Notes under the pieces: generated by a model
What the model was told of the DNA's origin: nothing
The model's database searches: none
Seen by the model: the letters and a program-made list of their open reading frames with translations, nothing else
Made by a program: the position numbers and the translations under genes
Part shown: piece after piece, positions 14,981-17,603 of the stretch
Position numbering within the stretch: the stretch's first letter is position 1
Layout: each line of letters opens with the position of its first letter
Assembly (NCBI GenBank): GCA_003212925.1
Contig: QCOL01000009.1
Span: forward strand, 1-45,115
DNA from: Pelagibacteraceae bacterium AG-430-P08
Lineage (GTDB): Bacteria > Pseudomonadota > Alphaproteobacteria > Pelagibacterales > Pelagibacteraceae
DNA length: 45,115 nt
Direction of reading: 5' to 3'

Positions 14981-15427
14981 TTATTTAATTTCAATAAGTT
15001 TTCTTTTTTTATGCTCTGGAACAATCCTTTCACAAGATATTGTTAAAAGACCATCTTTTAACTCAGCGCCATTTACTTTTACATCATCAGCTATAGTAAA
15101 TGATCTAGCAAATTGTCTTTGAGAAATACCTTTGTGAATTATTTCTCCATCAGCATTATTATTTTCAGATTTATTAACTTGTTTAGTTCTTACAGTTAAT
15201 AAATTATCTTCAAACTCAACTTCAACATCGTTTTTATTAAAACCAGCTAATGCAACTTCAATCGCATAATTATCCTTACCAGTTTTTCTGATGTTATAAG
15301 GTGGGTAATTTGACTGCATAGTCAAAGAACCATTACCAAGCATATTTTCGAATTGGTCAAACATATCGTCAAAACCAATTGAAAAAGGTCTTAGTGAGTT
15401 GAATATAGATAAATCCTTACTTGTCAT
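14981..15427 (-). CDS. Small heat shock protein, Hsp20/alpha-crystallin family (IbpA-like)
   Basis: The 148 residues have the typical sHSP layout: an N-terminal 'RPFSIGFDDMFDQFE' segment, an alpha-crystallin domain from 'YPPYNIRKTGKDNYAIEVAL' (in part, about 41-60) to 'DGLLTISCERIVPE', and a short C-terminal tail with 'KKRKLIEI', the IxI-like anchor. It is an ATP-independent holdase that binds unfolding proteins in the cytoplasm. The gene has a sigma-32 type promoter 64 bases upstream and a leader that appears to mask the ribosome binding site, so heat induction at two levels is likely. A strong AGGAGG precedes the ATG. Confidence 0.96.
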   Translation of the reverse strand: MTSKDLSIFNSLRPFSIGFDDMFDQFENMLGNGSLTMQSNYPPYNIRKTGKDNYAIEVALAGFNKNDVEVEFEDNLLTVRTKQVNKSENNNADGEIIHKGISQRQFARSFTIADDVKVNGAELKDGLLTISCERIVPEHKKRKLIEIK

Positions 15428-15485
15428 AATATCCTCCTTTTTTAAGCAAGTTTATTTATTGTTAGCCCCATTAGGCGACAAACAT
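15428..15485 (-). promoter_or_regulatory. Candidate ROSE-like RNA thermometer in the hsp20 5' leader
   Basis: The inferred leader of about 57 bases can form two hairpins. The first (15481-15459, minus strand) pairs UUGU with ACAA and GCCU with GGGC around a small internal loop. The second (15450-15433) pairs CUUGCUU with AAGGAGG across an AAAA loop and so sequesters the Shine-Dalgarno AGGAGG; the middle pair would be G-G. A UUGCU element facing the SD with a G-G mismatch is the hallmark of ROSE thermometers of alphaproteobacterial small heat shock genes (established for rhizobia). The transcription start is inferred from the promoter, and folding was done by eye. Confidence 0.55.
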
Positions 15486-15490
15486 TGTTT

Positions 15491-15518
15491 ATATGGGAGT
15501 TATTTATTTTTTTTCAAG
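15491..15518 (-). promoter_or_regulatory. Heat-shock (sigma-32/RpoH-type) promoter of hsp20
   Basis: On the minus strand CTTGAAA (15518-15512) is separated by 13 bases from TCCCATAT (15498-15491). These match the sigma-32 elements CTTGAAA and CCCCATnT with one mismatch in the -10 element. It begins only four bases after the stop codon of ptrB and predicts a start at about 15484. The same arrangement recurs upstream of groES. Confidence 0.8.
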
Positions 15519-15521
15519 ATA

Positions 15522-17603
15522 TCAAATTTTAATTTTTTTGGAGATCTTTAAAATAAATGCGTAGTCAAAAGCTATTTCTTCAATGGCACCATCTCTACCT
15601 GACTTACCTCCATGACCTGCATTCATTTCAGTTTTTAACAAAAGTAAATTATTATCAGTTTTTAAATCTCTAAGTTTGGCTGTAAATTTTGCTGGTTCAT
15701 CGAATAGCACTCTATTATCACTTAAGCTTGTAGTAATTAACATGTGAGGGTAATCCATTTTTTTAATATTATTATACGGAGCATAAGAATAGATGTAATC
15801 AAAATGGTCTTTTTTATCTTTTGCATTTCCGAATTCATCAAATTCTCCAACAGTAAGGGGCAAAGAATGATCCAAGTTAGTTGTTAAAGAGTCAACAAAT
15901 GGTACAGCCATGACAATTCCAAGAAACAATTCTGGAGATTGATTAACTACTGCTCCCATTAATAAACCACCAGCTGATCCACCCATGCCAATAATTTTTC
16001 CTTTCGATGAATATCCTTTTTCAATCAAAAACTTTGCCACGTGTATGTAATCTTCAAATGTATTTTTTTTATTAAGAAGCTTTCCTTCTTTCCACCATTT
16101 CATTCCTTTTTCCATTCCTCCTCTAATATGCGCGGTTACCCAAATAATATCTCTGTCAATTAAACTCAATCTAGTTGAGGAAAAATCTGGAGTCATTGAA
16201 CTTCCATAGGATCCATAGCCATATAAAAGTAAATTTGCTGAACCATTAATTTTTGTTTTTTTGTGTCTAGTAATTGTAAGTGGAACTAATCTTCCATCAT
16301 GAGAAGGGCACTCTAGTCTTTCGACTATATAGTCATCTGGATTATGACCAGATGGGATTTCTTGTTCTTTTACTAATTTTTTTTCTTTGGTTTTTAGATT
16401 GTATAAATAAGTTTTACCTGGTGTTTTAGGGGATGAATATGACAAGAAAACTGAGTCAGTATTTTTATTTCTTTGTATTAATGAAACACTAGGCACAATC
16501 ACAGACTCATCAGTAAATTTTAATTCTTCCTCAATTCCTGTTTGTTTATTTCTTACAAATAATTTTCCTAATGCATTTGATTTTTCTCCTCTGATAATCC
16601 AGTCATTCAAAAATATTAATCCTCCTATCAAAACCTCTTCTTTAGCAGCTATATAAATTTCCCACTTTTGATTTGATAAATCTTCACATCTTTCGATTTT
16701 GAAATCCTCTGCATCATCATTAGTATGACAATAAAAATATCCACCCCAAGAATTGACTGAATAAATTACACCCTTTTTTCTTTTTATAATTAATTTTGGC
16801 TTTGGGTTTTTTTCTGTTACTTCAAAGTAGTATTGTTCAGAAGTATTATGATCTGAAGTTGTTATAAAAAAATATTTTTCATCTGAACTCAAACTTATGC
16901 CCACAGTAAATGCTTCACTTTTTTCTTCAAAAATAAGCTCATCATCTTTGACTGATGATCCAATTTTGTGCCTATATATTTTTCTTGGTCTATGAAATTC
17001 ATCAAGCTTTGAATAAAAAAAATATTGGTCGTCCAAACTAAAAGTAATACTCCCACTAGTTTCCTCTATTTTCTCAGTGACCAATTTTCCCGAGCTAATA
17101 TTTCTTATGTAAATTGTATAATATTCAGATCCTTTTAAATCTAAAGAATAACCTAAAAGTTTGTCATTATAACTTACCTCTAAATCACCTACACCGAAAT
17201 ATTCAGTTTTCAATTTCTCTTTTTCTTTATCACCGTTCCAAAATTCTTCAACTTTATCACTCCCAATTTTCTTTCTTAGTTTTATCGAATAATTTCCTAC
17301 TGCAGTTGTTTTAGTCCAATATTCAAATTCTTTGTCTTTAAATTTTAATGATTCATCATCTAACTTTATTCTACCTTTAATTTCATCAAATAAGATTTTC
17401 TGATATTTTTTTGTGTCTTTTAAATTATGTTCTGTAAAATTATTTTCTTCTTCAAGATATTTCCTAACATCTGGAAGTAGCTTTGAACTATCTTTTAAAA
17501 CCTCAAGAATATCGTCTTGATGGATCCAACTATAATTATCCTCCCACGTGGTATTGTGACAAGATTTAAGCTCTGGTTTTTTTTTAAGTTGTGGTATTTT
17601 CAT
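15522..17603 (-). CDS. ptrB: Oligopeptidase B-like serine peptidase (prolyl oligopeptidase family S9A)
   Basis: At 693 residues it has the normal length of the S9A family. An N-terminal 'WEDNYSWI' helix region and a long beta-propeller (about 75-410) are followed by an alpha/beta-hydrolase domain. The nucleophile Ser is in 'GMGGSAGGLLMG' (about residue 538), the Asp in 'SLSDNRVLFDEPAKF' (about 628) and the His in 'NAGHGG' (about 664). 'HIRGGMEKGMKWW' is the typical oligopeptidase B block. It cleaves short peptides after basic residues in the cytoplasm (family knowledge). The start at 17603 lies only 14 bases from the start of the divergent J-protein gene, so both promoters must sit partly inside the opposite coding sequences. 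Confidence 0.93.
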   Translation of the reverse strand: MKIPQLKKKPELKSCHNTTWEDNYSWIHQDDILEVLKDSSKLLPDVRKYLEEENNFTEHNLKDTKKYQKILFDEIKGRIKLDDESLKFKDKEFEYWTKTTAVGNYSIKLRKKIGSDKVEEFWNGDKEKEKLKTEYFGVGDLEVSYNDKLLGYSLDLKGSEYYTIYIRNISSGKLVTEKIEETSGSITFSLDDQYFFYSKLDEFHRPRKIYRHKIGSSVKDDELIFEEKSEAFTVGISLSSDEKYFFITTSDHNTSEQYYFEVTEKNPKPKLIIKRKKGVIYSVNSWGGYFYCHTNDDAEDFKIERCEDLSNQKWEIYIAAKEEVLIGGLIFLNDWIIRGEKSNALGKLFVRNKQTGIEEELKFTDESVIVPSVSLIQRNKNTDSVFLSYSSPKTPGKTYLYNLKTKEKKLVKEQEIPSGHNPDDYIVERLECPSHDGRLVPLTITRHKKTKINGSANLLLYGYGSYGSSMTPDFSSTRLSLIDRDIIWVTAHIRGGMEKGMKWWKEGKLLNKKNTFEDYIHVAKFLIEKGYSSKGKIIGMGGSAGGLLMGAVVNQSPELFLGIVMAVPFVDSLTTNLDHSLPLTVGEFDEFGNAKDKKDHFDYIYSYAPYNNIKKMDYPHMLITTSLSDNRVLFDEPAKFTAKLRDLKTDNNLLLLKTEMNAGHGGKSGRDGAIEEIAFDYAFILKISKKIKI

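Follow-up and report, generated by a model that had tools for sequence, protein, structure and literature searches.

Among the described RNA thermometers, the closest counterparts of the leader analysed here are those of the Pseudomonas ibpA genes, which are two-hairpin ROSE-like elements of 61-62 nt (PMC3669281). The role of the upstream hairpin in ROSE leaders is not fully understood (PMC3669281). Two geometries have been reported for the central G of the sensory hairpin. The NMR structure of a Bradyrhizobium ROSE element, as cited in PMC11342760, contains a G-G pair, and the crystal structure of the ROSE-like element of Providencia stuartii oppF has a bulged G flanked by a U·G and a C-G pair (PMC11342760). 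A further layer of control has been described in E. coli, where IbpA binds its own 5′ untranslated region (PMC10474464).

In the window, i.e. the whole stretch of 45,115 nucleotides that was analysed, a gene for an IbpA-like small heat shock protein lies downstream of a gene for prolyl oligopeptidase. Both are on the minus strand, and the latter ends at 15522, which leaves an intergenic stretch of 94 nt. The genome comprises 1.02 Mb in 39 contigs and belongs to an order that we take to be SAR11. The encoded Hsp20 is identical to IbpA of E. coli K-12 at 53 of 134 aligned positions (40%). Of the genomes searched for hsp20, 82 of 101 in the genus and 259 of 297 in the order have the gene. Our searches of the literature on RNA thermometers and ROSE elements in Pelagibacter and SAR11, on bulged Gs in upstream hairpins and on the self-regulation of IbpA yielded no description of this leader beyond one candidate, a "possible RNA thermometer" in an intergenic region of strain HIMB5 whose gene is left unnamed in the passages concerned (PMC6429828); it may be the same element. 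The words "thermometer" and "heat shock" do not occur in the main text of PMC2704228 on Pelagibacter ubique.

Comparative and predicted evidence makes it very probable that the hsp20 leader is a two-hairpin ROSE-type RNA thermometer of about 58 nt placed behind a σ32-type promoter. The preliminary description had assigned nucleotides 15428-15485 of the minus strand to the leader of a small heat shock gene with two hairpins, and both the sequence and the Pfam HSP20 match bear this out (Table 1).

Table 1. Features of the hsp20 locus in window coordinates
Feature	Position	Strand	Basis
Promoter -35 like box CTTGAAA	15512..15518	-	TTGAA upstream in 116/118 leaders
Promoter -10 like box CCCATAT	15491..15497	-	TTGAA plus loosely defined -10 box in 112/118 leaders
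Hairpin I, GUUUGUCGCC-UAAU-GGGGCUAAC, stem with UAAU loop (15483-15461)	15461..15483	-	covariation
Bulged G of hairpin I	15476	-	invariant in 118/118; G-CC/GG module found again in further hsp20 leaders
Hairpin II, proposed thermosensor: CUUGCUU (15450-15444), AAAA loop (15443-15440), AAGGAGG (15439-15433)	15433..15450	-	sequence, conservation, isolated fold
G of UUGCU motif	15447	-	register count over 118 leaders; opposite G15436 in the register of the preliminary description
Shine-Dalgarno GGAGG	15433..15437	-	sequence; 5 nt upstream of AUG
hsp20, 148 aa, IbpA-like small heat shock protein (AUG at 15427-15425)	14981..15427	-	Pfam HSP20, E 1.5e-17
AAGUAAGG, codons 2-5, complementary to anti-SD	15415..15422	-	codons 2-4 frozen at synonymous sites

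The resemblance to the Pseudomonas ibpA thermometers extends to the number of hairpins with hairpin I upstream, the leader length, the U(U/C)GCU strand facing the Shine-Dalgarno (SD) sequence in hairpin II, the small heat shock gene and the σ32 promoter (PMC3669281). Unlike the description of these elements in PMC3669281, the present leader is AT-rich and the SD/anti-SD core is closed by a C-G pair at one end only. With the classical alphaproteobacterial ROSE elements (RF00435, RF02523) it shares the motif and the bulged G, and with the Rfam ROSE consensus an upstream hairpin with a bulged G and CC/GG pairing. Its SD hairpin, however, is shorter than theirs, the long lower stem being absent, and its score is below the gathering threshold. 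Since two-hairpin ROSE-like elements of 61-62 nt have already been described in Pseudomonas (PMC3669281), the preliminary view that the element would be unusually short finds no support. Two-hairpin elements as such are known; what is unusual here is a hairpin I with a bulged G and a set of frozen early codons.

Conservation was assessed on leaders from the window's family. We fetched 135 of them, four of which needed their starts to be set by hand, and left out one of these four (L137); the remaining 134 reduced to 118 distinct leaders, while two loci (L076 and L086) are gene fragments at contig ends without a leader. An alignment (A1) was made with MAFFT. The pair of TTGAA and -10 like boxes is found at identical spacing in 104 of the leaders, this figure and that of the pair itself (Table 1) being raw counts without a chance control. 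By the σ32 consensus, CTTGAAA and CCCATAT presumably form a σ32-type promoter, and the same genome carries an rpoH-type sigma gene with a score above the curated cut-off. Transcription would be expected to begin close to hairpin I, which would give a leader of about 58 nt.

A U(U/C)GCU motif facing GGAG is present in every one of the 118 distinct leaders, as UUGCU in 116 and as UCGCU in two, so that the alignment of relatives upholds the UUGCU-type strand named in the preliminary description. Four uridines opposite AGGA, as in a fourU thermometer, are not found in these leaders; the place is taken by UUGCU or UCGCU. The background consisted of 422 start contexts from 386 kb of this genome, one for every long open frame and each set at its first ATG (not all of these frames are real genes). 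GGAG stands upstream in 26 of these contexts, and U(U/C)GCU precedes it at hsp20 only; the composite CUYGCU-N2-9-AGGAG recurs in the 386 kb as one further sequence, which came up twice. Given these 26 contexts, strong Shine-Dalgarno sites look rare in this genome.

The motif G is invariant in all leaders. The preliminary description had placed it opposite a G of the SD strand. If the outer half of the hairpin slides by one position, the G is bulged out instead and comes to lie between a U·G and a C-G pair. In this register all five core pairs are intact in 118 of 118 leaders, whereas in the G-G register the outer pair is lost in 18 of them and a U-A pair in two. Folded in isolation, hairpin II is drawn by the energy model as (((.(((....))).))) from 5 to 42°C, i.e. 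with G opposite G, at a predicted -2.0 kcal/mol at 37°C and -4.1 kcal/mol at 20°C; in the whole leader at 5-10°C the same model draws the bulged G. We prefer the bulged G, which appears to fit the relatives better than a G-G pair, bearing in mind that the SD bases are constrained anyway. The better-kept register resembles that of P. stuartii oppF, an element of another gene and another bacterium, in its bulged G between U·G and C-G (PMC11342760).

Hairpin II is so nearly invariant that covariation is unable to test it, and RNAalifold did not call it on the family leaders. A possible compensation between its apical and basal ends (at least one of two pairs is kept in 115 of 118 leaders) runs in the right direction and was left aside because only two independent pairs on supported branches bear on it (median p 0.5).

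Hairpin I presents the opposite case, and the covariation check suggested in the preliminary description, uninformative for the nearly invariant hairpin II, gave a strong result here. In alignment A1, 97.9% of the cells in hairpin I are paired and seven of its nine pairs have changed on both sides; in the window, the pair 15480/15464 is a U-U mismatch. Both hairpins together contain 91 cells changed on both sides versus 19.6 in shuffles, and their covariation score is 0.314 versus 0.187 in shuffled and at most 0.178 in slid versions. Neither of these two measures was reached by any of the 500 shuffles or of the slid versions; the count of double-changed pairs is unremarkable, being equalled in 84 of the 500. 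The only structure that RNAalifold returned was exactly hairpin I with its bulged G. Compensation was also counted as independent pairs on supported branches of a quick tree of hsp20 coding sequences. For columns 21/42 the partner followed in 5.7 of nine independent pairs and never changed in the opposite direction (median p 0.031); this was the only pair of columns to reach the 0.05 level. The partner changed the same way in four of four pairs at columns 23/40, in 3.1 of 12 at columns 22/41 and in 3.7 of 6 at columns 19/44, the latter two without any change in the opposite direction. At columns 20/43, 2.0 changes went the same way versus 0.8 the other way.

Taken together, these features suggest the following mode of action. 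In the cool state, CUUGCUU would pair with the SD sequence around the bulged G (C15450-G15434, U15449-A15435, U15448·G15436, C15446-G15437, U15445-A15438, U15444-A15439) and block ribosome binding. Warming would melt the weak hairpin II and raise translation. Hairpin I would stay closed and aid folding, stability or recognition. We infer the formation and melting of hairpin II and the translational response, and carry over the permanence of hairpin I by analogy with Pseudomonas (PMC3669281).

Temperature predictions for the leader are suggestive at most in favour of a thermometer. Over a stretch of 112 nt, the predicted fold is no better than that of shuffled sequences (z -0.80, 39 of 200 as good). 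In the whole leader, GGAG is predicted to become more exposed on warming, with a median of 0.26 at 10°C and of 0.51 at 40°C (n=118). The values in 25 control leaders with GGAG are 0.45 and 0.49, and the quartiles of the two sets overlap. The window's own values are 0.20 and 0.45, and when the upstream sequence is shuffled, the SD is buried equally well at 10°C in 12.5% of cases. The minimum-energy fold of the window's leader also speaks against simple melting: from 5 to 30°C it encloses the anti-SD:SD pairing in longer pairings, and from 37 to 42°C it pairs the anti-SD with codons instead. In a short local fold, hairpin II barely opens below 55°C. Median local T50 values were 60.8°C for this family, 48°C for its sister family (f2) and 64.7°C for other alphaproteobacteria; being uncalibrated, they do not allow us to claim a lowered set point.

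At the gathering score, Rfam gave no match in the window. In a scan of 211 bases the two best matches were ROSE_3 (RF02523; 20.3 of 43 bits) and ROSE (RF00435; 18.3 of 45 bits), both with scores below gathering. None of 58 genomes exceeded the cut-off with either model; RF00435 was silent in 14 control genomes as well, so this genome scan does not show absence. When 20 loci were scanned laxly, a ROSE match appeared at two only and not at the window's locus. One was the leader of a relative (L010), which reached 35.1 of 43 bits with ROSE_3 (E 0.0018), and the other scored 28.6 bits (L256). As 20 other alphaproteobacterial hsp20 loci also lack a ROSE match at gathering, the Rfam cut-offs are narrow. 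The motif and its invariance, the upstream hairpin, the hsp20 gene and ROSE_3 and ROSE as the top, sub-threshold Rfam matches support the identification as a ROSE-like thermometer.

A model built from the family leaders (R1) shows how closely the element is tied to its gene. It matched at E ≤ 5.7e-6 in 61 of the 64 family genomes listed (counted by hand), 27 of the 61 being also in the training set. The results covered 117 genomes of the order, the 11 genomes without a match being absent from them. The three family genomes without an R1 match (G130, G186 and G204) are also without an hsp20 match, and each hsp20-bearing genome of the family has one strong copy. All 30 matches that were fetched lie upstream of hsp20. 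In 190 genomes of the class, R1 gave 24 matches at E ≤ 0.1, the window and G101 included. The four strongest outside the family (5.4e-8 to 1.3e-4) all precede hsp20, as do three weaker ones; 15 at E 0.006-0.1 lie elsewhere. No R1 match below E 0.005 was found in the sister family. One of the weak matches (L192:1501-1571, 23.7 bits), in another alphaproteobacterium, lies by eye directly 5′ of a dnaK-like gene and sets UUUGCC opposite AAAGGAG; it may be chance. An exact pattern scan of named genomes, a collection possibly without near relatives, gave a single match, in Confluentibacter lentus (L225:7946-7998), which is probably fortuitous.

The bulged G of hairpin I recurs far beyond this family. 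We searched for a module made up of a stem (5 bp or longer), a bulged G, CC, a loop of 3-8 nt and GG; this module is implicit in the Rfam ROSE consensus. It was found in 25 of 28 hsp20 leaders of the class (0.36 in shuffles, 0 with any other bulged base) and in none of 415 background leaders. These 28 were the best-scoring hsp20 loci of 28 genomes and had been seen before the pattern was written. With the pattern unchanged, 27 of 40 further class leaders carried the module (0.62 expected; bulged A 2, C 0, T 1). This second set came from 37 genomes and includes some second copies from genomes of the first; one leader, G502, had been seen before the test and is without the module. If any inner pairs are allowed together with a 6-bp stem, a bulged G is found in 24 of the 40 versus 2, 2 and 2 for the other bases. 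Outside the class, 10 of 19 leaders have the module (0.07 expected), seven of them from one family, and six of the nine without it are of one genus. Beside those 19 stood 11 leaders of the same class, of which two repeat counted loci, three come from a single genus and one lacks leader sequence. The module is present upstream of both ibpA and ibpB of E. coli. In the window's own family, 109 of 118 leaders contain the CC/GG module; the general search with the last 38 nt removed found only 3 of 118 (A 10, C 6, T 2), as this trimming cuts into hairpin I. The sister family has the CC/GG form in 0 of 38 leaders (duplicates included) and a GC/GC form in 27 of 38. The U(U/C)GCU motif was counted in the same sets. 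Together with the SD it was seen in 23 of the 28 class leaders; of the 40 further ones, 36 have it no more than 45 nt from the start, as do all 19 from outside the class.

Such recurrence invites the guess that the module is a binding site for Hsp20 on its own leader. On this reading the leader would act mainly as a putative Hsp20 site, as reported for E. coli IbpA, with the bulged G of hairpin I being recognised and temperature acting through depletion of free Hsp20. The strong preference for G as the bulged base and the presence of the module in both E. coli leaders are in line with it. For self-repression, IbpA needs an aromatic residue at position 34, a basic one at each of positions 97 and 98, and R93 (PMC10474464). 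The family proteins have Y or F at the equivalent of Y34 in 116 of 118 (two were unmatched by the pattern), R at that of R93 in 117 and R or K at that of position 97 in all 118. At the equivalent of K98, however, 117 of 118 have S or T in place of a basic residue. Moreover, the passages on binding in PMC10474464 do not locate the site within the 5′ untranslated region, and in Pseudomonas hairpin II alone suffices for thermoregulation (PMC3669281). With the module absent from nearly half of the leaders outside the class, concentrated there in one family and without its CC/GG form in the sister family, we regard control mainly by self-binding as unlikely. A different alternative concerns the start of hsp20. 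Codons 2-4 (ACA AGT AAG) are identical in 0.99, 1.00 and 0.98 of 101 full-length genes, compared with a median identity of 0.75 over conserved degenerate positions of the gene, and the freeze fades through codon 5 (0.93) to codon 6 (0.71). Two of these codons are rare elsewhere in the same genes, where AGT makes up 9% of the Ser codons and AAG 20% of the Lys codons. As the frozen codons are complementary to the anti-SD strand, a switch is possible in which codons 2-5 may serve as a second partner. Warming would then move CUUGCUU from the SD sequence to AAGUAAGG and free the ribosome site by an exchange of strands, not by simple unzipping. The complementary run is 7 bp long in 105 of 118 genes; with a motif shorter by one base, only two of 431 background starts reach a run of 7, and one of these is hsp20 itself. 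Weighted by codon use, the probability that a duplex this strong arises by chance is 0.018-0.027. The energy model is in accordance with this, as the predicted median pairing of the motif with the coding region is 0.00 at 5°C and 0.17 at 45°C, and that with the SD drops from 0.45 to 0.25 over the same range. On the other hand, this predicted occupancy is low, the native codons come only 11th and 13th when the 96 synonymous sets are ranked by duplex strength, and in six of 118 genes the run does not exceed 5. There is hardly any variation in either strand and thus no covariation. A few other codons of hsp20 (Q103, R104, N75, Q25) are conserved as strongly, and the early codons are perhaps constrained for other reasons. 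A strand switch is a tentative and rather improbable reading of the frozen codons.

The two ideas might be combined in a three-part device, in which UUGCU swaps the SD sequence for codons 2-5 on warming and hairpin I offers the putative Hsp20 site, so that a leader of about 60 nt would sense both temperature and free chaperone. We consider this combination quite improbable. Another explanation would be that only the promoter and a strong Shine-Dalgarno sequence are conserved and that the pairing is fortuitous. The absence of covariation in hairpin II and the weak predicted folding would agree with this, but UUGCU serves no obvious purpose in the promoter or for the ribosome and is nevertheless kept in all leaders while the linker varies, and hairpin I covaries. 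We consider fortuitous pairing very improbable. A short upstream open reading frame, beginning within the hairpin I loop and mediating the action of the leader, has least to recommend it. In the window, AUG GGG ... UAA gives nine codons (15471-15442, minus strand) ending inside hairpin II, and an ATG stands at that place in 101 of 118 leaders. It is missing from the other 17, and the frame has four codons in 37 leaders, nine in 24, another length in 12 and runs open into the gene in 28. As the frame is not kept among relatives, we disfavour this reading and hold it to be scarcely credible. In four leaders (L057, L060, L061, L064), an in-frame ATG in the loop lengthens hsp20 by 13 codons; thus, the annotation may set the start of hsp20 too early there.

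If the ROSE-type thermometer is what the comparison suggests, a promoter and an RNA thermometer would jointly set hsp20 expression in small-genome marine cells. The least ordinary features of the leader are the unchanging bulged G of hairpin I and a frozen gene start as a possible competitor for the same RNA strand. Present in all sampled leaders and in many other hsp20/ibpA leaders, this bulged G provides a concrete target for studies of chaperone binding or folding, and the frozen early codons offer a second handle on the mechanism.

The sister family appears by eye to have kept the long-stem form of ROSE. Its hsp20 leaders (L077-L085, L226-L255) have similar promoter-like boxes and UCGCU, and to the eye they contain a third hairpin and a longer lower SD stem of 6 bp, UUAAUC/GAUUAA. 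In one other genome (L266), AUUAAC/GUUAAU occupies the same place in the lower stem.
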